Shown: positions 43,589-62,027 of the stretch, piece by piece | Position numbering within the stretch: position 1 is the first letter of the stretch | Layout of the letters: every line of letters begins with the position of its first letter | Assembly: GCF_015207005.2 (NCBI RefSeq) | Contig: NZ_JADEXS020000001.1 | Location: 4,030,001 to 4,094,000 of the forward strand | DNA: 64,000 nt | Origin: Desmonostoc muscorum LEGE 12446 | GTDB taxonomy: Bacteria; Cyanobacteriota; Cyanobacteriia; Cyanobacteriales; Nostocaceae | Reading direction: 5' to 3' | Position numbers and translations under genes: made by a program | Notes under the pieces: generated by a model | What the model saw: the letters and a program-made list of their open reading frames with translations, nothing else | Database searches by the model: none | What the model was told of the DNA's origin: nothing

Positions 43589-44530
43589 ATGCTAACCGCT
43601 GCAAAAACGTTGTCTGGTTTGATGGGTTTATGTGTCGGTGATGCATTGGGTGTGCCAGTGGAGTTTACTAGCCGTGCAGAACGAGTCAAATCTCCAGTGA
43701 CGACAATGTTGGGTTATGGCACATGGAATCAACCGCCGGGAACTTGGTCAGATGATAGTTCGTTAAGCTTTTGCTTGGCAGAAAGTCTTTGTAGAGGGTA
43801 TTCGCTGGAGGCTATAGCTAATTCCTTCTGGCGCTGGTACAAGGAAGCTTACTGGACTCCCCGTGGCGATGTGTTTGATATTGGTCAAACGACTCATACA
43901 GCATTGATGCGGCTGAAACAGGGAGTTGTAGCCCACCAGGCGGGCGGTAAAGTTGAAAATAGTAATGGCAATGGTTCGTTAATGAGAATCTTGCCGATGG
44001 CTTATTGTCATAGAAGCTTAACTTTAGGCGAATTACTGGCGCGGGTGCATGATGTTTCAGGGATTACTCATGCCCATAGGCGATCGCAAATGGCCTGTGG
44101 CATTTATATTAGTATTGCAGTGTCCTTACTCGAAGGCGCTGACCTGCAAACCGCTTATCTCCAAGGATTACAAGATATCCAAACAATTTATTCGGTGCGG
44201 GAATTTTTGTTGGAAAAGCCGCATTTTGGCAGAGTTTTCAGTGGTGAGATTGCCAAGTTACCAGTGGAAGAGATTAATTCTGGTGGCTATGTGATTGATA
44301 CCTTAGAATCATCACTGTGGTGTTTATTAAATAGCTCATCTTATTCGGAAGCGGTACTGAAAGCTGTTAACTTAGGCGGAGATACAGATACTACTGCCGC
44401 CGTCACCGGTGGGTTAGCGGGAATTTACTACGGCGTGGAAAATATTCCCCGACAATGGATGAACCAAATTGCCCGTAAACAGGACATTATCTACTTGGCA
44501 GAACGTTTTGCCAGGGCTGTTTACAGTTAG
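43589..44530 (+). CDS. ADP-ribosylglycohydrolase family protein (copy 1)
   Basis: A 313-residue DraG/ARH-type hydrolase that removes ADP-ribose from modified proteins or nucleic acids. Metal-binding motifs are GTWSDDSSLSF (Thr52, Asp55, Asp56) near the N-terminus and GGDTDTTAAVTGGLAG near residue 262. Further family blocks are LMGLCVGDALGVPVEF and ENSNGNGSLMRILPMAY. It forms a tandem pair with the next gene, 87 bp downstream. The final about 145 residues of the two proteins differ at one position and their DNA is about 98% identical there, whereas the first halves have diverged widely. No ADP-ribosyltransferase partner lies beside it. Confidence 0.92.
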   Translation: MLTAAKTLSGLMGLCVGDALGVPVEFTSRAERVKSPVTTMLGYGTWNQPPGTWSDDSSLSFCLAESLCRGYSLEAIANSFWRWYKEAYWTPRGDVFDIGQTTHTALMRLKQGVVAHQAGGKVENSNGNGSLMRILPMAYCHRSLTLGELLARVHDVSGITHAHRRSQMACGIYISIAVSLLEGADLQTAYLQGLQDIQTIYSVREFLLEKPHFGRVFSGEIAKLPVEEINSGGYVIDTLESSLWCLLNSSSYSEAVLKAVNLGGDTDTTAAVTGGLAGIYYGVENIPRQWMNQIARKQDIIYLAERFARAVYS

Positions 44531-44617
44531 TTTGGAATTAGAAATTATACCAAGCGTTTGATAAGCGGCTTTTCGCAAGTAAAATCAGTTGTAGAAAAGT
44601 TTCATGCTGGTTGAACA

Positions 44618-45708
<1,091 letters not shown>

Positions 45709-48386: not shown

Positions 48387-48745
48387 GGCACTAGCAAATA
48401 ACTCCTCACAGGGGCATTCTTAATATGGAATATATAATGGCATTTGGCAGCATCGCCAAGGCTGAAATTACCTAGCGTGCTGTAAAAATGGACTAAGCCG
48501 AGCGATCGCTAGATACTTCACCAGAGTAAGCTGCCCAGAAAGACTCGGGCTAGGGTAAACAACCCCTTGACAACACAATATATCTAACCAATACCCCATC
48601 TACTTCGTTTTTAGTGTACATTGAATAACTAGCGACTTGGATCTTAGCCTTGCTAGTGATAAATCTGCAATTTTCCATTGCTTCTTAGTCTGGTAAAGCG
48701 ATATAATAATTTAGGTGACTCTTTTGGGAGCCGCTGTATTATTTT
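48387..48745. other. 359-bp intergenic region before tRNA-Arg
   Basis: No gene seen. One HIP1 site near 48503. The last 80 bases are the likely promoter region of the tRNA gene. Confidence 0.5.
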
Positions 48746-48818
48746 GGGCGCGTAGCTCAGTGGATAGAGCAATTGCCTTCTAAGCAATCGGTCGCAGGTT
48801 CGAACCCTGCCGCGCTCG
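48746..48818 (+). tRNA. tRNA-Arg (anticodon UCU)
   Basis: A 73-base cloverleaf. The acceptor is GGGCGCG/CGCGCTC with a G discriminator. The D-arm is GCTC-AGTGGATA-GAGC and the anticodon arm ATTGC-CTTCTAA-GCAAT with anticodon TCT. The T-arm is GCAGG-TTCGAAC-CCTGC. CCA is not encoded. It reads AGA/AGG arginine codons. Confidence 0.97.
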
Positions 48819-48832
48819 TTTTAATTTGGTAT

Positions 48833-49008: not shown

Positions 49009-50769
49009 CTATGCTTCATCACTAAGTAAGTTTAAAGCAGTTTGAGGATTGTTAATGGCGATCGCGCTGAGAACTTTAGACCATTTCTGCTGCAATGAGA
49101 CGCTAAAAGCTTCTTCAAAAGAAGCTTGATTCAATAAATAAAGTGCTGTTTTAAAAGTTGTTGAATCAGCTATTAAATTTTTCGACCTTAACCCTTGAAG
49201 TGCGATATCCAACCACACAGACATAAGTTCCAGCCAGTTATTTTGCTGTATTTCTTTGAGTGCAATATTTTCCATTCCTAACGCACCCCATACACAAAGA
49301 GACTCTATAGCCAGTTTAAAATCGCGGTGTTCTACAGCATCTTGCCATAATTTTTGAGCGTGATTTTCAAAGCGATTAGCAAGAAATTTATAAGCTTCCT
49401 GGACTTGATCGGGAATTGTAACTTTATAAACTGATTCGCCTCTTGGTAGATAGTCACCGCGATAAGATAGCCAGTTATGAGAGCCGCAAAGATGGATTTT
49501 TTGATCGACTATTACTTCTTTGACATGGGAATCTCCCAACCAAAAAACCTGTACAGATGGCAATCCTTCAGGTGTTTTTACTCCCCGAAGTTTTTCCTCT
49601 ACTTCTGATGACATTGGTTTATCTTCGTCTTCTTGTCGTCGCGCAATTCCATGTCCAATTAAAATCCAAACTCCGCGATCGGCTAATTTTTGTAATCCAG
49701 TCAAAAACTTTTCATTTACAACTGCTTGGTTCACCCAAGGGGAATAGACTATAACCTGATTTTTAGCCGAATTTAAAACTTCTATAAAAGCTTGAGCAAT
49801 TTGCCCATCGCGTAACTGTATAGCTTCACCTATCGGTGTGGTATTATCTACTTTTTCACTGACTTTTATGGCACGTTCTAAAGCCTTTTGACGAATTTTT
49901 TCCAGTCTAGCTTCTACTTCAGTGTTTTTTTGTTTAAGAATCGCTTCACGTTCAAAATTGATGGCTTCATTTGACAATTTACATAATCTTTGCAAGGATA
50001 TCTTACCCTCATTATGTAGTATTTGTAACCAATTTGACGCTGCCTCTAAAATTTGCTTTCCACTTCTTATTTGAATGCTCAGCTTATCTTCAATAGCGTC
50101 AAATATAACGAAAAGCGATATTTTTTTCCAAATTTTTTGAGTGGAAGCTACTACCTTAAAGGAAGTGACAATTTTCCCCTCTTCTGGCACATGAAGTGCT
50201 AAGCCTGAAGCCTGAATATTTTTTTGTATTTCTTCAAGCGATAACACGGAAATATCACTAATTGTATTATCAATAGTTATAAAATCTGCTAAATCAGGCA
50301 GATTTATTACTGTCTCGTTTAAAGATTCAGATTGAAAAGTTATCTTCCCACTTAAAGGGTCTGTAATAGCATTAAGCTGTACAGGATATGGGGGCTGTGG
50401 TACAGACCCTTTTTCATAAAACGAGCGACCTTCAGAAGTGACTGTAATTGGCGATGTTGCTGATAGGGTTTGTAATGAACGGAGAGTTGCAGTAGTACTG
50501 CGGATAAATACAGAATCAAGCCCAAGTACAGAGGCTAATTCATCTTCTGTTGGAGGAGGTTCAAATTCAATAGCAGCCCGGATAATAAATTCTTCGAGTA
50601 CGTTAAATGGGCGGGGTTCTTTGATGTTTATTTCTACAGGAGTTTGACGCAGGCTGTAACGAAATTGACGCGCTGCTAAAACTGATAAACTAGAACTTTG
50701 CGCTTCAATTTCCTCTACCAAATTTTTGAGATTATCATCAATTGGTTTAGCAGAAGAGTCGAGAAACAT
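49009..50769 (-). CDS. PLD-family nuclease linked to an SF1 helicase
   Basis: A 586-residue protein. The start is ATG 50769, with GGAGG 8 bases upstream, inside the last codons of the decayed helicase (23-base overlap). An N-terminal winged-helix-like region (about 55-120: FNVLEEFIIRAAIEFEPPPTEDELASVLGLD) leads to a beta-rich middle and coiled coil. One PLD domain follows with QVIVYSPWVNQAVV and the HxKx4D motif (His415, Lys417, Asp422), then GSHNW. One motif per chain means it must dimerise for catalysis, as in Nuc/BfiI-type enzymes. The C-terminal about 120 residues are helical. The overlap with a COG1112-type helicase gene indicates a helicase-nuclease defence module, similar in principle to Mokosh. 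No HKD residue is missing, so it appears active. Confidence 0.88.
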   Translation of the reverse strand: MFLDSSAKPIDDNLKNLVEEIEAQSSSLSVLAARQFRYSLRQTPVEINIKEPRPFNVLEEFIIRAAIEFEPPPTEDELASVLGLDSVFIRSTTATLRSLQTLSATSPITVTSEGRSFYEKGSVPQPPYPVQLNAITDPLSGKITFQSESLNETVINLPDLADFITIDNTISDISVLSLEEIQKNIQASGLALHVPEEGKIVTSFKVVASTQKIWKKISLFVIFDAIEDKLSIQIRSGKQILEAASNWLQILHNEGKISLQRLCKLSNEAINFEREAILKQKNTEVEARLEKIRQKALERAIKVSEKVDNTTPIGEAIQLRDGQIAQAFIEVLNSAKNQVIVYSPWVNQAVVNEKFLTGLQKLADRGVWILIGHGIARRQEDEDKPMSSEVEEKLRGVKTPEGLPSVQVFWLGDSHVKEVIVDQKIHLCGSHNWLSYRGDYLPRGESVYKVTIPDQVQEAYKFLANRFENHAQKLWQDAVEHRDFKLAIESLCVWGALGMENIALKEIQQNNWLELMSVWLDIALQGLRSKNLIADSTTFKTALYLLNQASFEEAFSVSLQQKWSKVLSAIAINNPQTALNLLSDEA

Positions 50770-51895
50770 CAATGAAACCTCCATGTAGACGCACGATGTT
50801 TGAAATATTAGAGTACATACTCCCAATTTGTCCACGCTGCTGAGTAAATAGCGAATGACAACCAACAATTACTAGTAGTTCTTTAGCAGGTGAGAATGCA
50901 ACGTTAACACGTTCTGGCTTCTTGGCAAATCCCACATCTTTTTTACTATTATTGCGAACCATACTAACAATCACAACAGGCCTTTCCATACCTTGAAATC
51001 GGTCTACTGTACCAGTGGTGATTTGCAGCGATGGAAAATCTTTAGATTGTAGCCGTTCATCAATTTTTCTGAGTTGAGCGCCATAAAATGTAATCACGGC
51101 GATTTCTTTTTTTGGTTCACCATTAGCAACTCTAGAAGCCCAATTACTCTCAAATTTTTGACATAAACGTTCAATTGCGTCAATTTCCGGGATATTAAAG
51201 AATGAAGTTCCTCTAGATTCCTCTTGAAATTCATTTTCTCCAGGCATTTTTACCCATATAAGATGCTTATCTGGTTGAATTATTTCACTTGGTAAATTAT
51301 GTGCGCGATTGATGTCAGGCTCTAAGATACCACATTCTAGCTGACTGTCATAAAACTGATTGATTGCTCCCATAATTATGGGGTGCATTCGATATTGAAT
51401 ATTTAACATTCGTTTGATGCTATCATCAGCAGTTTCAAACTGAATTTTAAACAGTGACTCTTGCAATAATTGTAGTTCTGTATTTGTGCTGCCAATCTCT
51501 TGAGAAACTTCCTCTAAAGTCTTCGTGTCAAGCATGGGTGGTAATTGTCGATGGTCGCCTACCATGACCAACTTTTTGCCTTTTAAGCCGGGGATTAATA
51601 ATTCTGGAGGAGTACATTTACTAACTTCATCGATAATGACGACATCAAAGTATTTGAATTCTTGTGAAAAATCGGAATTTGCGGCTTGAACGCAAGTGAT
51701 ACCAACGACGTTGGCATTATCTAGATAAATGCGCCTTAAATCTGTGCTATCGCGCTCTGTTGGCTGTCTTAATTTTCCAATCCAATCTTGCACAAAGTGT
51801 TGATATTTATTGAGGTAAATTTCTTCTTCTTGGAGCTGCTGCTGCCAGAATTTAAACTTAATATTTATGGTATGTAAAAACTCTACATTCCACAA
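50747..51895 (-). pseudogene. Helicase pseudogene fragment, C-terminal motor half
   Basis: The 382-residue frame carries [14 protein letters not shown] (motif II), GDHRQLPP (III), [25 protein letters not shown] (V) and RVNVAFSPAKEL, where the motif VI Arg is Pro. Open frame continues upstream to the 184-bp element at 52013 (reading NERTWWQLIWKTIPSKFKPEN, which matches the intact copy). It could be annotated as a separate CDS but is only the end of the broken gene. Confidence 0.85.
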
Positions 51896-52012
51896 GTCTG
51901 TATAATAATTTTCCGGCTTAAATTTACTAGGAATTGTTTTCCAAATTAACTGCCACCAAGTTCGTTCATTTGATATATATTCTAATTGTTGCTGTAAAAT
52001 CTCAATTATTTT

Positions 52013-52196
52013 GGCTCTTCAGTACTTAATATGCTAAATTAATCTACTAAAAAGCTGAAAATATTGCTGCACAACAAAAGCAGGCATTGTTTTTAACATT
52101 TTAGTCCATTCTTGGGACTTAAGCGTTATAAACTTGATTTTAAGGTCTAGCTTTGATATTTAACTAATAATTTGGCATAACAGGTACTGAAGAACC
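52013..52196. mobile_element. 184-bp ISL3-like miniature element (MITE)
   Basis: The ends are imperfect 28-bp inverted repeats: GGCTCTTCAGTACTTAATATGC.. on one side and GGTTCTTCAGTACCTGTTATGC.. read from the other, about 23 of 28 matching. Eight-bp direct repeats ATTATTTT flank it (52005-52012 and 52197-52204). GGCTCTTC ends and 8-bp duplications are typical of the ISL3 family. The element has no transposase frame and would need one in trans. It sits in the helicase pseudogene, and its removal fuses the flanking codons in frame. Confidence 0.88.
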
Positions 52197-53260
52197 ATTA
52201 TTTTCTCTATTTTAGTTTGGGTTTCTGTCAATTGTATTTTGTAAATTTCAGTTGTCTTATGTAAGCTAAAAATGTAAGCTACGAGCAGATTATTGGCAGT
52301 CGAGAGTGTAGCAAAAGGATCGACTAAACCAATCAAAGTATCAAGTTGTTTGGTGCGATTTTCCCAGTTTTGTACTTGTGCTATAAATTCTGCTGTCTCA
52401 GTCAGAATATTTGAGGAATTATCAAGGTATTGTTGCACTAAAAGCCTTAATTCATCGGGCAAGTATGGGAAAGATAAAAGTTCTTGTAAGAGTGCGATCG
52501 CTTTTTTAAACTTGAAGTCAGCTTCACTGCAAAAAGTTCCTACCTGCTCTTGATTGGCAGATATTTGCTTCTCAGCATTAGCCACCAACTTAATTTGTTC
52601 ATTTAATTGTTTTTCAAGTACCTTTTGCTCTTGTTCTGTCTGAACCTGTAGTTGGTTTAGCCATGTACGCGCACTTGTAACAATGCCTTCAACCACCTCT
52701 GCTGTAATCTGAGAAATTGCCAATTCCTTGTCAACAGGTTGGACTCTCTGACGTATAGCTTGGGCTTCTCTCCTAATAGCTTCAAGCCTTATTGCAGCAG
52801 TATAACGGCGGCTATATGGACGTAACTTTTGAGCTATGGAATCCAAGCTTTTCTGCTTGAGAGCGATCGCAAGCACCCATTCAATAATCCAACCCCAAAC
52901 CCCCAGTGGTTTCTCAATCTCATCAATGCTATTTTGTGCTAATCGCTTAAGCTTTATTAGAGATTCCACAGGGTCTAACTCTTTACTCCCACTTACCTTG
53001 GTAATGTCAGCTTCACTAATTGAGCGATTACCTAGTAAATTCCGCCCCCGCACGAGTAAATCTTTGATTTCACAAACCTGACTACAAACTCTATCCCATT
53101 GTCGATATTTTTGAATTAATTCATTGACTTTTAACCGACACTGCTCAAGATTCTCTTGCCAGGGTAGAGTCTGATTTACCATCGCCAAGTTTGGTAATCT
53201 TGAAGGTAAATAGATTAAGTCATCTGTAAAATTTTGCCGGTCTTGTAAGCATCGCGCCAA
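52160..53260 (-). pseudogene. Helicase pseudogene fragment, central coiled-coil part
   Basis: A 366-residue frame corresponding to the long helical insertion between motifs Ia and II of the intact helicase (heptad-rich, many Gln/Glu/Leu). It is in the same frame as the fragment upstream, separated only by the TGA at 53294-53296. Its 3' end (after TKIEKIM) runs into the 184-bp element. Confidence 0.82.
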
Positions 53261-53293
53261 TATATTAGTGATTTCTAGATGAGCTTTAGGTAA

Positions 53294-55000
53294 TCATTTA
53301 TCAAGTTCACTTCTTATCAAATTATCTTCAGATGTAAGGTTTTGTAGATTCCTAATTCTTTGCTGTAAACTTTGCTGACTGGCAAGCAATTGTTGGTGAT
53401 TTGATTTCAAGCGAACAAAAGAATCCGAATTTTGTTTGTAAGTCTGTGCTGCTGACTTAGCTTCGGTCATAGCTGTAGCTGTATCACTGGCATAAGCTAA
53501 TGCTGTCCGAATTTTAGTAATCGAAGAAGTTACATTATTTTGCAACCAGGCGGCTAAACCAAATGAGTCGTAATTTGGGCGAATTAGACCAAGTTCAGAA
53601 GCCAGATCAATTGCTAACCGAAGATTTACACCAAAGTTTCGTAATGAAGGGTCTGTAGACGCGTATTTCTTCAAACCTGCCCACAAATTAAGAAGTGCTG
53701 GATCTTGCCAGTCTACTGAAGGTGCTTGATTCAGCAACTCCTCCAAAGCAATTTTCAGAGATTCGACCTCGGCCAGTTGAGATGCGGCTTGATTATATTC
53801 ATTTGTTTGGTTTGTACAAACTGACTCTAAATTGGCTTTGCGTGTCTGTAATAAATTCTGTTCTTCCTTGAATGTCTCTTCTACTTTTAGGTATGCTGTG
53901 AATCGTTGTGATGCTGCTAACAATTGACGCAAAATGTTTACATCATCAAGGTGTTGAACAAGATTTTTTTCGCAGTCACTAGCAGTATTTTCTAACCATG
54001 TACCAATCACTCGGTCTTCTAGAAATGGCTGTCCTTCTTCCCCAACTCTTTCGGCGTTTCCCTTTCGCAGAGGCCGGATTACAGGGTTATGAACTAATCG
54101 GCTGAGGGCATTATCTACTGCTAAATTGGCTTGAGAAGTAATTAGAGTGCGCCCACCCCGTAGAGCAACTTGATAGCAAATCTCCGCAATTACGGTAGTT
54201 TTACCAGTACCTGGTGGACCTTGAATGAGAACTAAATCCTCAGCAGCAAGCACGGTTTCTACTGCTGCTTTCTGACTAGGATTAGCTGAGGATAACAACA
54301 AATCCTCTGTTTGCAATTCGACAGTTTTTTGGATAGATCTTGCTTGGGAAGCGTCAAATAAAAAGTTTCCTAAATAGGGATTTTGGGTGCGTCCCTGTCT
54401 TAATTGTGTCAAGGCTGCTTTTTTATACCGAATCTGTTGCATACTACCAACAGCCTCGAAAAACAAAAATCCGGTGGCTGGTAGCTGATAACGTCCTGCT
54501 GCCATATAGTCAGCTAAATCGCGTTCTAGCCTCACGCGGATAATACAACGGTTCGGGTCAACTTCTTCAATATTTCCTAATTGCCGACTGTTGCGCCAGT
54601 TTTGTCCTGTGGGAGTAGTCTCAAACAGCTTAATCTCTTCGTTTCTTGCTCGTTTTACCCGTTCCCAGAAGTTTTCCACAGCCAAGGAATTTTCATCAGA
54701 ACCGTCAAGAGTAGCTGAGGTTACGTCAATCTCAAAAGCGATCGCTCTTCCGAAGCCATTATGGCTGAAAAAAGGCACACAAAATTGTCGTGTTTCGGCG
54801 ATTTTTTCCTCAATCTGTAAAAAGACTTCCCAAAATCGCAAATTATCTTCTGTCGGCAGATGGTCACCACATATAGGCATGGCTGCCATCCGTGCCAATG
54901 CTGTTGGCGGAATATCGATACGATACTGATGATTAGGCAGCAGCCGTAAACGATAAGGTAGAGCATAGCCATCAGCATTTCCCTGTGAAAGTTGTACCAA
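53294..55000 (-). pseudogene. Helicase pseudogene fragment, N-terminal motor half
   Basis: A 568-residue frame with the N-terminal domain ([25 protein letters not shown]), ANPSQKAAVETVL (Q-motif-like), Walker [18 protein letters not shown] and the Ia block [19 protein letters not shown]. The reading frame is open further upstream to the 206-bp element ([17 protein letters not shown]), so the ATG at 55000 is not the original start. Confidence 0.85.
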
Positions 55001-55170
55001 CTTAGCAGATAGTATTTTTAAACCGCCCCTTCCATCTTGTTGTGCAACTGCTCTGAATTCTAGTGTTTGTCCTAGCTTCTCAAGTCTTGTAGGTAATTGA
55101 AAATCATCCTGATCTGTTGCTATGGTTAGATCCCAAATTTCTTCTCTAGGATTTTGCCCCCCGCCCTTCC

Positions 55171-55376
55171 CAGGGCTGTTTCATTCCATTTCAAACAGGA
55201 TTTGTCAAGATGGTTAGCGAGAAAATTGTAAGTCAGGGTGACGATGAGATGAACATTTAAACATTGAAATATCAGTAAAATAGTTCATTTTCTGGGCACG
55301 CTGGTAACAAAATAACTAATTTTTAATTGCTAGAACCCTTGATTTTTAAAGCTCTTTGGGGAATGAAACAGCCCTG
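55171..55376. mobile_element. 206-bp miniature inverted-repeat element (MITE)
   Basis: Perfect 17-bp terminal inverted repeats, CAGGGCTGTTTCATTCC (55171-55187) and its complement (55360-55376), are flanked by 10-bp direct repeats CCGCCCTTCC (55161-55170 and 55377-55386). The interior is AT-rich without a coding frame. The 10-bp duplication suggests mobilisation by an IS4-type transposase in trans (inference). It interrupts the helicase pseudogene near its 5' end. Confidence 0.92.
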
Positions 55377-55576
55377 CCGCCCTTCCGGCGTATATAAACT
55401 AGGCGAGGCTCTTGGCCCAGTAAATCAAATATTAACTCGTTAGCACGCTCTCGTCGCTGTTCAAATTCAGGATATGATTCAAGATCTGCTTGACTTTCAA
55501 AATTGCTGATTAAACTATTAATTGCCGAGCCTATTAAGGTATAGCCCCAATCTTCTGAATCTGTTTTTATTTTCAC
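55346..55576 (-). pseudogene. Helicase pseudogene fragment, 5' end
   Basis: A 76-codon frame from a GTG: KIKTDSEDWGYTLIGSAINSLISNFES ... RANELIFDLLGQEPRLVYIRRKGG, matching residues about 62-125 of the intact helicase. The last 11 codons (RAVSFPKEL) are read from the terminal repeat of the 206-bp element and end in its TAA. Confidence 0.85.
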
Positions 55577-55693
55577 AAATAAAATACGATTTTTATATAG
55601 TTTGTACTGTCAATACTATACCGTGATTCAAAACCGAAATTTTACGACGAAGAATCTCAGTTTGAATGATGGCTAATTCGCCTAGTACATCAC

Positions 55694-55745
55694 CTCAATT
55701 TTGCCTACCAAATTCTTGAGATTATCATCAATAGGTGAGCAGAAA
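55694..55745 (-). pseudogene. Ghost of a second PLD gene 5' end
   Basis: About 44 of 52 bases match the beginning of the PLD gene (compare 50704-50756). Read on the minus strand it still encodes PIDDNLKNLVGKIE, against PIDDNLKNLVEEIE in the intact gene. It lies just after the stop codon of the Uma2 gene and upstream of the helicase pseudogene. It marks a deleted PLD copy that would have followed the intact helicase. Confidence 0.8.
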
Positions 55746-55752
55746 TCGTCAG

Positions 55753-56349
55753 CTATTTCTGAAGCGCTTGCTGAAAAGTTTTAATGGCATCAACATGATT
55801 GACCATATTAATGCAGCGCAACAACAAATCCAAATCGATTCCTTTGACCTCTTCACTACTGGAAACCTTTTCATAGTGAAGCGCGTTGCCTTCTTGACGC
55901 AGGTGATAAACTTCTAACACGCCATCTTCCCAAAACCACACTTCGGGAATCAACAGCCGCTTGTATGCCTCCAGTTTGTTGATACCGCCACTGGTAAACA
56001 CCACCTCTACTGCCAAATCTGGACGCACTCGGCCAGGGGCAAGTTTGTAGGATTCATCCGCCTCTCGCTTCACAGCACCTGCTTCACTTTCCAAGGTCAT
56101 TGAGCCAGTTGGAGTAAAGTCAAACCCTGCCAAAAGCAAATACAGTTCGACCAATGCGGCAATTCTTTTCTTAACGGTTTCGTGGGGTTCTCCAGGCATT
56201 CTTCGGATCTCCAAAACACCATCCAGGAAAGACAGGCGATATCCTGGACGGTCTAATAATTGCTCAACGGCTTTGAATTCTCTCCAAGTCAGTCCCTCAA
56301 ATAGAAGGGGTGACTCTTTTGTGAGTGTAGGGATGGCTGTTGTAGTCAT
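55753..56349 (-). CDS. Uma2 family (DUF820) putative endonuclease
   Basis: A 198-residue protein of the PD-(D/E)xK-like Uma2 family, which is greatly expanded in filamentous cyanobacteria. Core residues are visible: Glu in LSFLDGVLEIRRM, the Asp in RPDLAVEVVFTSGG, and KLEAYKRLLIPEVWFWED with Lys near residue 127. Nuclease activity is predicted from the fold; the biological role of the family is unsettled. It lies between the intact helicase and the decayed copy, together with a transporter gene, and its stop codon abuts the PLD ghost, so it may have arrived with a rearrangement. Confidence 0.88.
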   Translation of the reverse strand: MTTTAIPTLTKESPLLFEGLTWREFKAVEQLLDRPGYRLSFLDGVLEIRRMPGEPHETVKKRIAALVELYLLLAGFDFTPTGSMTLESEAGAVKREADESYKLAPGRVRPDLAVEVVFTSGGINKLEAYKRLLIPEVWFWEDGVLEVYHLRQEGNALHYEKVSSSEEVKGIDLDLLLRCINMVNHVDAIKTFQQALQK

Positions 56350-56506
56350 AAAAGTCTCCAGTCTGTTTCTAAATGAGAAATAATCAGCTTTGGAGGTCAG
56401 TTTGTTAATTCTAAATTTTTTGTTGCATTTTCGGAGAAATAAATCTTTTTTTGTTTCTCCATACCGGATGTAGTTGCTGTCAAATACTCGTTAGCAAGCA
56501 TCTATA

Positions 56507-57385
56507 TTATGCTTTCAACAAGCCTTGGCGACGATTAGCCCACCAAGCAAATCCAGCACCAGTCACAAACATTAGCAGACCATAAATCGCCCCAGGAATG
56601 GCCATTGTGGGACTATTTAGCAATGTAGGCGTAGAAGCGATCGCGATCGCTAGAGTCCCATTTTGAATTCCTACTTCTATTGTAATTGCTGTAACACGTT
56701 TTTCTCCTAATCGGGCTAAGGTAGCGATCGCAAAACCTAAAGCCATTGCAACCACATTCAAAACCAGAGTTGCCCAGCCGACATCTATTACATAAGAAAT
56801 AAAATTATTCCGTTCTCGCAGCAGCACTCCAGTGATTACCACCGCTAGGAAAAATAAAGACAGCCACTTCACAGGTTTATCTGCCTTATCTGCTAGTCCG
56901 GGTGCATACCGCTTGGCTATCATCCCAATTGCTATAGGTAGAAGTGTAATCACCCCAATCTGCAAAACAGTACTTAAGAAAGGTAACTGTAGGGTTGTTC
57001 CTTGTCCTAAAAATGTCTGCATTGACAAATTGATTACCAAAGGAATCGTAAAAACCGTAATAAAACTACTAATAGCTGTTAGCGTCACAGAAAGAGCAAC
57101 ATCGCCCCCAGCCAAAAACGTAATCATATTAGAGGTAGCGCCACCGGGACAGGCTGCTAAAATCATCACACCTACTGCTAATTGTGGGTCAAGGGGAAAC
57201 ACTGATGCAATGCCAAAGCCCACAATCGGCAACACGATTAGCTGCGCCGCTAAGCCAATCACCACCGCTTTCGGATAGATTACAACTCGCTTGAAGTCCT
57301 CTAGGGTCAAGGTTAATCCCATGCCTAACATGATAATAAATAGAGCCAGGGGCAGAAAAACAGCCGTCAGAAAATTTGCTTCCAT
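56507..57385 (-). CDS. Bile acid:sodium symporter (BASS) family protein
   Basis: A 292-residue membrane protein with about nine to ten helices. Family blocks include FIIMLGMGLTLTLEDFKRVVIYPKAV, GVMILAACPGGATSNMITFLAGGDVALSVTLTAISS (the unwound helix crossover with the Na+ site) and VEVGIQNGTLAIAIA. In cyanobacteria and plastids, BASS proteins carry bicarbonate, pyruvate or other carboxylates with Na+; the substrate here is not predictable. It is located after the intact helicase on the same strand, 157 bp from the Uma2 gene. It has no evident functional link to the helicase. Confidence 0.93.
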   Translation of the reverse strand: MEANFLTAVFLPLALFIIMLGMGLTLTLEDFKRVVIYPKAVVIGLAAQLIVLPIVGFGIASVFPLDPQLAVGVMILAACPGGATSNMITFLAGGDVALSVTLTAISSFITVFTIPLVINLSMQTFLGQGTTLQLPFLSTVLQIGVITLLPIAIGMIAKRYAPGLADKADKPVKWLSLFFLAVVITGVLLRERNNFISYVIDVGWATLVLNVVAMALGFAIATLARLGEKRVTAITIEVGIQNGTLAIAIASTPTLLNSPTMAIPGAIYGLLMFVTGAGFAWWANRRQGLLKA

Positions 57386-57545
57386 ACTTAACCTGCGTTG
57401 GTAACAATAAAAGTGCCTCTGGATTGTACCGTGTTTGGATTGACGACTGTTGCAAATTAAGCCCTTGGAATGGTTCAGAAAACTAAAATCTAGGGTTTTT
57501 GTTGTGTCAATAAAAGCAAGTTCTTAATTTTGGATAAAGTCGAGT

Positions 57546-60500
57546 TTAGCAGAAGATGCGAGAAACATCAACGAAACCTTCATGAAGGCTAACAATATTT
57601 GAAACTTCCGAATACATACTTCCAACTTTCCCTGGTTGATGTGTAAATAAATCATGACAACCGACAATTATCAGCAATTCTTGAGCGCGAGAAAATGCAA
57701 CATTCACCCGTTCTGGTTTCTTAGCAAATCCCACGTCTCCTTTATTATTGTTGCGAACCATACTCACAATTACAACAGGTCTTTCCATCCCTTGAAATCT
57801 GTCTACTGTACCAGTACGAATTTCTAGGGAAGGGAAAAGTTCAGATTGCAGACGTTCGTCAATTTTTCTTAATTGAGCGCCATAAAATGTAATTACGGCG
57901 ATTTCTTTTTTTGCTTCCCCATTAGCAACTTTATCAGCCCAAGTATTCTCGAACTGCTGACAAAGGCGTTCAATTATATCAATTTCTGGAGTATTAAAAT
58001 AAGAAGTCCCGTTACGTTCTTCTAAAAATTTCTTTTCTATGGGCGTTTTTACCCACAGAATATGGTGAGATTCTTGGATGATTTCCCCTGCTAAATTATG
58101 TGCGCGTTTTGTATCAGGTTCCAAAATCCCAGATTCTAGTTTACCGTCGTAAAATTGATTGATTGCGCCCATAATATAGGGGTGCATTCGATATTGTGTA
58201 GTTAGCATTTGTTTTATGCTTTCATCAGCAGATTCAAATTGACTTTTAAAGAGTGAATCTTCTAAAAATTGTAGTTCTTCTCGTGTATTGCCAATTGCTT
58301 GAGCAACTTCTTCTAAAGTGCTAGTATCAAGCATGGGTGGTAATTGTCGATGGTCGCCTACCATGACTAACTTTTTACCTTTCAATGCTGGAATTAGTAA
58401 TTCTGGGGGAGTACACTTACTAACTTCGTCAATGATGACGACATCAAAGGATTTAAATTCTTCAGAGAAACCCCTATTTGCAGCTTGCACGCAGGTGATA
58501 CCAACGACGTTGGCATTATCTAAATATATGCGCCTTAAATCGTCGCGATCGCCTTCCGTTGGCTTTCTTAATTTTTCTATCCAATCTTGCACAAAATTCT
58601 GATATTTGTTAAGATAAGCTTCTTCTTTTTGAAGTTCTTTTTGCCAAGATTCAAACTGACTATTTAAACTCTGTAAAAACTCTATATTAAAAACATCACC
58701 ACTAGAATTTTCTGGCTTAAATTTATCTGGTATTGTTCCCCATTCTGTCAACCACCAGTTTCTTTGGGCGATTAAACTTTCCGATGGCTGTGGTTGTAGT
58801 TGTTGTTCTAATTCATCTAGATTAATTTGCAATTTTTGAAGCTGCTGTAGACAAGCTTCGGTTTCTTGTTTGAGTTTTGCTAAATGCTCATCTAGAGAAT
58901 TTTTAATTACCTCCAGCACAGCAAAAGGTTCTAATAATGAAATCAAAGTTTCAAGCTGAGTTATGCAATTTACCCAAGAATGCACTTGTTGGGTAAATTC
59001 TTGGGGGTGTTCCCAAATATTTGATTGTGTTGTGAGATATTGCTCAGCTAAAATGCGTAGTTTATTAGGTGTGTTTGGCTGTTGGCTAAGTTCTTGCAAG
59101 ATATTAATAACTTGTTGAAGTTGCAAATTAGCATCTTGTTGCGTTTTTTCTAGCTGATATTGGATGGTTAAGATTTGCTGTTGGCTGATTTCATTTGTAT
59201 TAAGTTCATTTAGTTGTCGGCGTAGATGATGAAGCTGTTGTTCAGTTTCCGTTTTGACTTTTAAAACGCATTGACGTGCATTTGCAAGGATAGTCTCTAG
59301 CAATTCTTGTGTAATTCGGGTGAGAGTAGAGTCGATGTTATTCCATTCCCATGATGCACCATAGGTTTTCTGCATTCTGATTAAGAAAAACTGGGTATTT
59401 TCAACCAGTAATTTTCGCTGTTTTGGGTTAAGTAGTTGATAGTTATTAAACTGTTTATAAGTCTCTTGCCATTGGGTGCGATCGCTTTGTGAAAACACCA
59501 TTGGAATTTGACTAAAATTTTGTTGTAAAAAATAACTAAAATTATGCTGTTTGCCTTGTCTATCAGTAAAATTGCCATCTGTCTCATAAGCGATCGCTTT
59601 TGTCAATAACTCCCACTCCGGCAGGTTAATTTTGTAGTTTTTTGGTACTAGTGGTAACTTTAATGTATTAGCAAACATCAACAAACCTAGCGGTAAATCC
59701 ACCAGATTATCTGTTAAAGGTAAACCCGATCGCTGACAATCTTTTAAAGTTTGATAGAGATGAGAATGTGCTGTTGACTTCCATTCTTTCACTGCTGAGA
59801 TAATATAATCGATTTCCCGTTGGCGGTTTTCCCATATCTGGATTGTTTGCTGTAGGTTTTGCTGCTTGGCAAGAAATTTTTGATCATCTGCTTGTAACTG
59901 ATTTAACGAGTCAAAATTCTGTTTAACAGTCTGCGCTAATGCTGCAACTGCTGACATGGCTTCACTCACATTTTGAGCAGAATTCAAAGCAGTTTTAAAT
60001 TCCAAAATTTCTGTTGCTATGGTTTCACGCAACCAAATCGCTAAACCAAAAGCACCAAATTCTGGGCGAACAAAGGCAAGTTCATCAGTATATTTAAGAG
60101 ATTGACGAACATTTGCTAAAAATTCTTCTACTAAACTATTACCTTCTGTGTAGGGCTTAAGAAGTGGCAAAAAATTTGTAACTTCTGGAGATTCCCAGTT
60201 GATATTAGCAGCATTATTTAGTAAAATATCCAAGTCAAAATTTAGAGATTTAACTTCATTTTGCTCTGCTAATATTTCTTTGTAAAAATTTTCTTGATTT
60301 TTAAAGTTTTCCTCTAATACTAATTTATTTTGATGAAACTTACTTTGTTGTTCTTGGAATTTTTTCTCTTTTTTTAAATAGGCTGTAAATCTTGGCAATA
60401 ATGGCAGTAATTGACTCAAAAGTTTAATATTTCCTAGTCGTTGAGTAAGATTATTTTCGCAGTCATTTGCAGTATTTTCCAGCCATCTGCCAATCACTTG

Positions 60501-62027
60501 ATCTTCTAAAAATGGCTGTCCTTCCTCCCCAACTTTTTCGGCTTTTCCCTTACGTACAGCCCGAATCACTGGGTTGTGAACTAATCGACTCAAGGCGTTA
60601 TCTACTGCTAAATTGGCTTGAGAAGCGATTAAAGTGCGCCCGCCACGAAGGGCAATTTGATAGCAAATTTCAGCAATTACGGTAGTTTTTCCAGTACCTG
60701 GTGGCCCTTGAATCAAAACAAGATCCTTGGCAGCAAGTACCTTTTCTACTGCTGCTTTTTGTCCAGGATTAGCAGCAGATAATAATAATTCCTCTGGTTT
60801 AAGTTCAATGGTTGTTTTAATTTGTCTAGCTTGGGAAGCATCGAATAAAAAGTTACCCAAATATTGATTCTGAGTGTAACCATTATTCAAATCGTCTAAG
60901 GCTTTTTTCTTGCGCTGAATCTGCTGAATATCACCAACTGCTTCAAAACACAAAAATCCGGTTGCTGGCAACTTATAACGATCTGTTGCGATATATTCAG
61001 CTAAGTCACGTTCTAATCTCACGCTGATAATACAACGGTTGGGATCGACTTCTTCAACAGTTCCTAATTGGCGGCCGCTAAGCCAATTTTTACCAATGGG
61101 AGCAGTTTCAAACAGTTTTAAATCTTCGTTTTTTGCTCGTCTTGCGCGTTCCCAAAAGTTTTCTAGTTCAAGGGAATTTTGATAAAAGCCGTCAAGGGTG
61201 GCTGAGGTGACATCAATTTCAAAATTAATCCGTCTTTTGAAGTTATGGTTGTTACTGATGTAACGCACACAAAATTGACGTGCTTTAGCGATTTTTTCTT
61301 CAATTTGTAAAAACGCTTTCCAAGCTTTCAACTGTTCTTCTGTAGGCACATAATCGCCACAAGCTGGCGCGGCTTTTATACGCGTCAATGTCGCCGATGG
61401 AATGTCGAGATGATGCTGGTGATTAGGTAACAAACGCAAGCGAAAAGCTACAGAATAGCTATCAGCATTTCCCCGTGATAGGTGTAATAACTGAGCCGAA
61501 AGTATCTTTAAACCGCCCTTCCCATCTTTTTGTACAGCTACTGTAAATCCTAATGTTTTTTTTAGTTTTTCCAGTCTTGGAGGTAATTGAAATTCATCGG
61601 AGTCTGTTGCTATTGTTAAATCCCAAATTTCTTCTCCTACGTCTTTACCTGCACCTTTGCGACGCACATAAAATAAACAAGGCTTTTTCCCGACGCATTC
61701 AAACATTAACTCGTTGGCGTGTTCGCGTCGTTGGCGAAATTCGGGATATGATTCTAGGGCGCTTTCTCCTTCAAGATTGCGGATTAATCTATCAATTGTT
61801 GAACCTACGAATGTATAACCCCACTCTTGGGAGGATGTTTTAATTTTTGAGGATTTAGCTGTTAGTTTATTTACTGCTAGACGAATGCGTTCTGCTTCGG
61901 ATTCCGAGATTGAACTTGTATGGCTTTTGACTGTAATTTTGAGGCGATCGCAAATTTCTAATAGTTTTTTACTATCTAAATTCAATTCTTTTGAAAGTTC
62001 GTAGATTCTGAGTTTGATTTTGTTCAT
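57546..62027 (-). CDS. Very large SF1 (UPF1/DNA2-like) helicase with IF2-type N-terminal domain
   Basis: A 1493-residue protein. Residues 1-52 ([44 protein letters not shown]) match the N-terminal domain of bacterial initiation factor IF2. A conserved domain follows (65-400), then the motor: [12 protein letters not shown], Walker A GPPGTGKT (441-448) and [17 protein letters not shown]. About 650 residues of coiled coil separate it from motif II DEVS (about 1200), [21 protein letters not shown] and AFSRAQ with its Arg finger. Helicases of this COG1112 type translocate on RNA or DNA; with PLD proteins they form phage-defence modules. The decayed copy at 50747-55576 is its paralogue. Its 3' end still contains the in-frame start of a lost PLD gene (ATG 57568, MFLASSAK). 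It starts 54 bp after the HDAC-like gene. Confidence 0.93.

Follow-up and report, generated by a model that had tools for sequence, protein, structure and literature searches.

A candidate kinase-less, Mokosh-like helicase-MkoB system in Desmonostoc muscorum and related cyanobacteria

What is the partner of an intact helicase whose nearest nuclease gene lies behind a dead copy of the helicase itself? The question is raised by a 64,000-nt stretch of Desmonostoc muscorum LEGE 12446 (here the window; NZ_JADEXS020000001.1, positions 4,030,001-4,094,000, in a genome of 9.6 Mb; the nearest relatives of its MkoB bear the name Nostoc). The window contains an mkoA-like gene (helicase A), a decayed paralogue (helicase B) and mkoB, which encodes an adaptor joined to a phospholipase D (PLD) nuclease (Table 1). 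We consider it fairly probable, judging from sequence comparison, that these genes represent a kinase-less, Mokosh-like two-gene conflict system with MkoB as adaptor, in which helicase A would use in trans the mkoB of the second module. Homologues were drawn from scans of genomes, plasmids and phages, and all taxa considered are cyanobacteria; G and L numbers are our handles for genomes and loci.

Helicase A and its partner MkoB

Helicase A is classed as a UPF1-like superfamily 1 (SF1) helicase. The ratio of nonsynonymous to synonymous substitution rates (dN/dS) is 0.14-0.22 in the pairs computed. The initial annotation, made from the sequence letters, had described a 1493-residue SF1 helicase with an IF2-type N-terminus, and Pfam matches agree with both; residues 1-60 are 68% identical to IF2 of the same genome. 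A coiled coil of about 650 residues had been described as well. Its length and helical character stand, as the structure model of the insert contains two helices of 108-109 residues (predicted local distance difference test, pLDDT, mostly 70-90 there); residues 799-894, however, are similar to the N-terminal part of RecG. This domain has 36% identity to RecG of the same genome; the NF008170 match is far under that model's own cut-off. The IF2-like domain had further been taken to mark the system. However, IF2_N was observed in only 15 of 79 scored helicase rows, every one from the window's own family, while the kinase-less clade is wider, and thus it was rejected as a hallmark.

MkoB is predicted to consist of a constant N-domain of about 285 aa with a MarR-like winged helix and an exchangeable effector. 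Homologues and the Shine-Dalgarno box set its start at ATG 50769, where the open reading frame (ORF) list had TTG 50868. With this start mkoB overlaps the stop of helicase B by 23 nt, in agreement with the overlap and the GGAGG placement noted earlier from the letters. The overlap is widespread: in a set of 109 distinct MkoBs that have the end of a helicase gene close by (an earlier set comprised 125 pairs including repeats), the start lies 17-23 nt within the helicase in 90 cases and exactly 23 nt within it in 75, and Shine-Dalgarno motifs precede 86 of the 90 overlapping starts. Of 98 distinct MkoBs of the PLD type, 91 show the catalytic HKD pattern. The dN/dS of full MkoB is 0.20-0.27 (pairs computed). 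No PDB sequence match to MkoB was found.

The two proteins occur together. Tallied by eye, 68 of the 291 genomes examined from the order carry the helicase clade, and 66 of these also have the MkoB N-domain; in the remaining two (G254, G175) the helicases break off close to a contig edge. Pieces of MkoB with no helicase were observed in G193 (a 4.3-kb contig) and G244 (fragments). In the phylum sample of 386 genomes the MkoB N-domain was found in 40, all from the window's order. Among 18 genomes of the family chosen from this sample, the six with an MkoB match carry the helicase and the twelve without one lack it.

The genus was surveyed in 53 genomes, tallied by eye from listings. Helicase A is intact in 48 of them. 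A full MkoB is present in 42 and a short one in eight; in two (G168, G293) MkoB is broken, and in one (G333) it is split between contigs. The short MkoBs of G291, G302 and G312 have stops inside the aligned stretch, yet frames of 285-293 aa are open, and they were scored as open short forms. Each of the 48 genomes that keep helicase A intact has an open MkoB (40 full PLD forms, eight short); in G168 and G293, where helicase A is lost or broken, MkoB is broken. Because of this joint retention, the intact helicase A probably acts with the distantly encoded MkoB, as the initial annotation had suggested for the PLD gene 7 kb away. In G632, from another genus, the helicase and MkoB have decayed together. 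The coordinates of G321 show a 23-nt overlap between mkoB and helicase A itself.

The distances between helicase A and MkoB, 7 kb in the window, 80 kb in G292, 285 kb in G335, 1.3 Mb in G240 and 1.4 Mb in G338, together with the death of the cis partner helicase B, could suggest that helicase A is an orphan, MkoB a free-standing remnant of a dead module, and their joint retention a matter of chance or common descent. We regard this as improbable, since MkoB follows the state of helicase A in the genus survey, and since its dN/dS between the window and L067 and L069 is 0.20 and 0.24, although these two have lost helicase B or retain a remnant of it.

Known systems and exchange of the effector

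The best PADLOC matches of the pair are the Mokosh profiles, MkoA (PDLC03920) for helicase A at 4e-117 (391 bits) and MkoB for mkoB at 1.2e-30. The definition of Mokosh used here comes from citing papers. In the available part of one (PMC11672841), a serine-threonine kinase belongs to the description of type I; in the parts available, Mokosh is said to degrade phage transcripts or RNA, with no worked mechanism. The window shares with type I the succession of two genes, one for a COG1112/UPF1-like helicase and then a separate one for a PLD nuclease. Unlike type I, its clade has no serine-threonine kinase, a long insert with a RecG-N-like domain, a 23-nt overlap and an MkoB effector that may be swapped or missing, and, in the window's family, an IF2_N head. 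Type II (MkoC) shares both activities, but there they are fused in one protein, whereas the window has two genes. The window pair is thus best classed, on its sequence, as a kinase-less Mokosh-like variant, neither Mokosh I nor II proper, in line with the earlier proposal of a Mokosh-like helicase and PLD without a visible kinase.

One possibility is that the pair is an ordinary type I member that has lost its kinase. The PADLOC matches are as expected in this case. However, no Pkinase match was found among the 25 of 26 Pfam families shown for helicase A, or in five relatives scanned. Moreover, on the 1112-position MkoA profile the best stretch of helicase A is 690-1082 and the family never starts under 449, whereas kinase-bearing MkoAs of the same order (G210, G065), with a Pkinase match, cover 6-1105 and 6-1108 (712 and 920 bits). 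Simple kinase loss is therefore very improbable. Pairs of a PLD gene with a helicase having a kinase-like N-terminus do occur in the order (L139-L143, L145; confirmed by Pfam in L139 and L141, the others recognized from the sequence start). Two of them are in genomes that also have the kinase-less clade (G094 = L143, G281 = L142).

In the available part of its description (PMC11090510), CnuH of CoCoNuT types II and III is a UPF1-like helicase that has an SmpB-like head and, after Walker A, an insert that is helical and in part coiled coil; its partner CnuE has a winged helix and an exchangeable nuclease (HEPN; PLD in III-C). By analogy with this description, CnuH and CnuE are the nearest architectural parallel of the window pair, sharing the insert after Walker A, a translation-related head (IF2_N in the window) and a partner with a winged helix and a nuclease. 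The McrB-type GTPase CnuB and CnuC were not among the four neighbour genes scanned at 47.7-63.1 kb (histone deacetylase, HDAC; SBF; Uma2; DUF7469), and no search for them covered the remainder of the genome. The PLD restriction enzymes SauUSI, BfiI and NgoAVII differ from the window pair, which has a separate adaptor gene and a helicase of a different class. The DISARM DrmC model NF038319 gives mkoB 23.8 bits against a cut-off of 133, and thus mkoB is not of the DrmC type.

In several relatives the PLD part of MkoB is replaced. A DarT domain was found in G008, G303 and G315 (PF14487, E down to 2e-18) and, by phmmer alone, in G706. In two Nostoc genomes the DarT form adjoins BREX genes. The G315 form, on plasmid pC052_C (L228 4277-11025), is situated between the BREX genes pglX and pglZ and is accompanied by an ADP-ribosylglycohydrolase. 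The G303 form adjoins pglZ and a frame whose start nearly equals that of an ADP-ribosylglycohydrolase, and the latter is present with the G008 form too. The forms observed here resemble DarT-type toxins in the C-terminal domain, but are fused to the MkoB adaptor and have the hydrolase, in place of a DarG macrodomain, as neighbour. In L231, pglZ is near a DarT-type MkoA/MkoB whose DarT part is in a separate frame. Another, unknown C-terminal domain replaces PLD in G136, G309, G639 and G673 (L110 5971-7362, L230 5224-6645, L295 5856-7225, L296 6366-7835). It has about 200 aa with the common stretch SHIPGG-DVVVEYH; the gene in L295 is split into two frames. Among the matches listed from the open-access literature, none describes a DarT- or MkoB-swapped Mokosh.

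Other MkoBs are short, and two of those from relatives match the MkoB profile in its N part only. On the helicase tree there are at least 6-7 switches between PLD and short forms. A separate neighbouring nuclease gene for the short forms was considered, and no common extra effector was evident among the listed downstream frames (lengths and few starts; most unscanned). In G591 (L280 6385-7602) an in-frame loss has removed the PLD core of MkoB but left the C-terminal tail; the helicase, about 7 kb upstream, is intact.

History of the locus

Helicase B is 56% identical to helicase A across the N half, with all matches in one frame. It has nine in-frame stops, five of them within an inserted 206-bp element resembling a miniature inverted-repeat transposable element (MITE). 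The terminus of this element occurs 24+26 times in the genome, versus 0 for a reversed-pattern control. Motif VI has Pro in place of Arg, IF2_N was not found in the helicase B of the window, and its middle part is a sequence different from the RecG-N-like domain of helicase A. Open frames of the B type exist in relatives (L242, 1530 aa; L248, 1444 aa, the latter with IF2_N). The genus survey gave a second, B-like hit at E 1e-30 in 12 of the 53 genomes, and most of these hits are fragments or broken. As the C-terminal part of helicase B has dN/dS of 0.20-0.24, with no evident relaxed selection, its decay may be recent.

Helicase A once had an mkoB of its own: the fossil start of an overlapping mkoB is retained in its 3' end and a ghost of the following codons lies further downstream. 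These traces, together with the paralogue, agree with the duplicated module and the ghost of another PLD start proposed in the initial annotation. The ghost is also present downstream of helicase A in L067 and L068. Tandem double modules with open frames were found in Oscillatoria sp. PCC 10802 and O. princeps (L220, L224; L089, L090).

The order of events can be reconstructed tentatively. The ancestral helicase-mkoB module would have doubled in the Nostoc of the window, after which the stretch with the SBF transporter and Uma2 genes, presumably inserted at the junction, split helicase A from its own mkoB. This mkoB would then have died and helicase B decayed afterwards, so that helicase A would now work in trans with the mkoB left by module B.

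Comparison with G304, of the same species, points to replacement of this region. The flanks are 96.5-98% identical and the mkoB N-domain is 86% identical; in G304 the MkoB is short and helicase B is absent from the interval. The downstream identity block starts at 48826, beside a tRNA-Arg gene. This gene, tRNA-Arg(TCT) at 48745-48819, is directly beyond the mkoB region, and the edge of the block there resembles a site of integration or recombination. Elsewhere in the window, two tandem 313-aa ORFs at 43589-45559 (+) align to one and the same G304 stretch and are probably a recent duplication.

Table 1. Features of the locus in window coordinates
Feature	Position	Strand	Basis or detail
mkoA-like helicase A	57546..62027	-	1493 aa, stop-free; AAA_11/AAA_12 SF1 core (Pfam)
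IF2_N domain, residues 5-51	61875..62015	-	PF04760, E=7.7e-10
Long helical insert, residues about 507-1155, Walker A to motif II	58563..60509	-	structure model
RecG-N-terminus-like domain, residues 799-894, inside insert	59346..59633	-	NF008170, E=7e-14
Fossil start of lost overlapping mkoB, inside helicase A 3' end	57546..57568	-	MFLASSAK = codons 1-8, read from sequence
SBF/BASS transporter gene, between helicase A and ghost of its lost partner	56507..57385	-	Pfam
Uma2 gene, same interval	55753..56349	-	Pfam
Ghost of about mkoB codons 9-22	55695..55736	-	88% across 42 nt
mkoA-like helicase B, decayed	about 50747..55580	-	9 in-frame stops, different middle module
MITE-like element, 206 bp, inside helicase B	55171..55376	.	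perfect 17-nt terminal inverted repeats
Shine-Dalgarno GGAGG for mkoB, within helicase B frame	50778..50782	-	sequence
mkoB, adaptor + PLD nuclease, 586 aa	49009..50769	-	PADLOC PDLC03922, PLD fold
MarR-like winged helix of MkoB, residues 52-122	50404..50616	-	
PLD domain of MkoB, residues 313-471	49357..49833	-	
HxKxxxxD catalytic motif of MkoB, residues 415-422	49504..49527	-	

A conflict system or a domesticated pair

In the conflict system that we favour, MkoA would be a translocase of the UPF1-like SF1 type, which bears a long helical arm and whose heads (IF2_N or the RecG-N-like domain) can be exchanged. MkoA and MkoB would normally be made by coupled translation via the 23-nt overlap, the winged-helix N-domain of MkoB would dock on MkoA, and the C-terminal effector would do the damage. 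A helicase meeting abnormal nucleic acid, possibly phage RNA or DNA, would deliver or un-inhibit the effector, in the window a PLD nuclease cutting nucleic acid. The IF2_N and RecG-N heads may sense phage interference with translation or with forks, or act as baits for it. DarT modifies single-stranded DNA. The DarT form and the RecG-N likeness favour DNA as the target, which may be either DNA or RNA.

Several observations weigh against this scheme. The joint retention of helicase A and MkoB, which has a chance of 1/1225 in a hand Fisher test, comes from one genus and is not corrected for kinship. The test leaves out G333, G296 and G330 for contig splits or incompleteness; in G330 helicase A is split across two contigs and MkoB is full. 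No helicase was found in G296, which is 72% complete and has a full MkoB. Where helicase B is open (G332, G318; B frames L242, L248), MkoB may serve B. The structure model of helicase A is usable for the insert only, its RecA domains being poorly modelled; the PLD domain of MkoB scores under the Pfam cut-off; and seven of 98 PLD-type MkoBs, some of them fragments, have no HKD pattern. The pairing and the overlap that had been expected of Nostocales genomes were found, but the nuclease expected with them is missing from MkoB in 34 of 78 labelled rows of the helicase tree, and thus it would be dispensable for what is selected there. The tree rows are a non-random sample. Labels were changed manually in 17 of the 80 rows, where partners were not adjacent, a contig ended, a DarT was frameshifted (one row) or MkoB was broken (one row); two rows have no label. 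PLD relics are absent beside short MkoBs at all 29 loci (L070, a frameshifted full gene, was excluded), which rules out fresh nonsense truncation. Finally, the chromosomal locus is stable and placed amid housekeeping genes, unlike most defence genes. Much of the family has the order HDAC - mkoA - mkoB - GCS2 - SpoU methylase - M23 peptidase, named by Pfam in L071 and recognized elsewhere by length and sequence start, with HDAC separately identified. The neighbours are different in genus g5, and in the window mkoB is followed by a DUF7469 gene.

As the locus is situated amid housekeeping genes, and PLD-less MkoB is common and, in Nostoc, under purifying selection (dN/dS 0.20-0.29 at seven loci with short MkoB), defence is not the only role that the sequences allow for the pair. 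It could be a domesticated housekeeping helicase-adaptor pair, engaged in RNA or fork surveillance at a fixed locus, with PLD as a dispensable leftover of defence that is being lost. The conserved gene order, the short forms without relics, the repeated PLD/short changes, and the origin of the IF2_N and RecG-N heads, which are parts of translation and fork-repair proteins, are all consistent with this. Nevertheless we consider domestication unlikely, though clearly less so than an orphan helicase. A single housekeeping gene in all cyanobacteria, without PLD partners and outside variable islands, had been named in advance as the observation that would speak against defence; the fixed locus after HDAC and the PLD-less partners go some way towards it, but the distribution is patchy (68 of 291 genomes in the order, 40 of 386 in the phylum by the MkoB N-domain, none of 12 same-family genomes), and almost all helicase genomes keep the MkoB N-domain. 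Plasmid copies are found inside BREX and, in HL-69, beside hsdR; effectors are swapped to DarT; and alleles are replaced between strains of one species. No copies of the pair were found in the phage collection scanned.

Somewhat more tentatively than the conflict system itself, all these forms may be one class: a chassis of helicase and winged helix that carries PLD, DarT with a hydrolase antidote, a new domain or no effector, has borrowed IF2 and RecG heads as sensors or baits, is split in Nostoc, where one helicase would serve an effector encoded far away, and recombines PLD and PLD-less alleles within a species. The swapping of effectors on a constant helicase and MkoB N-domain suggests which part is the sensor, which the coupler and which the warhead. 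The DarT form offers a handle on the substrate of the helicase, DNA or RNA, and the frequent PLD-less pairs raise the question of domestication.

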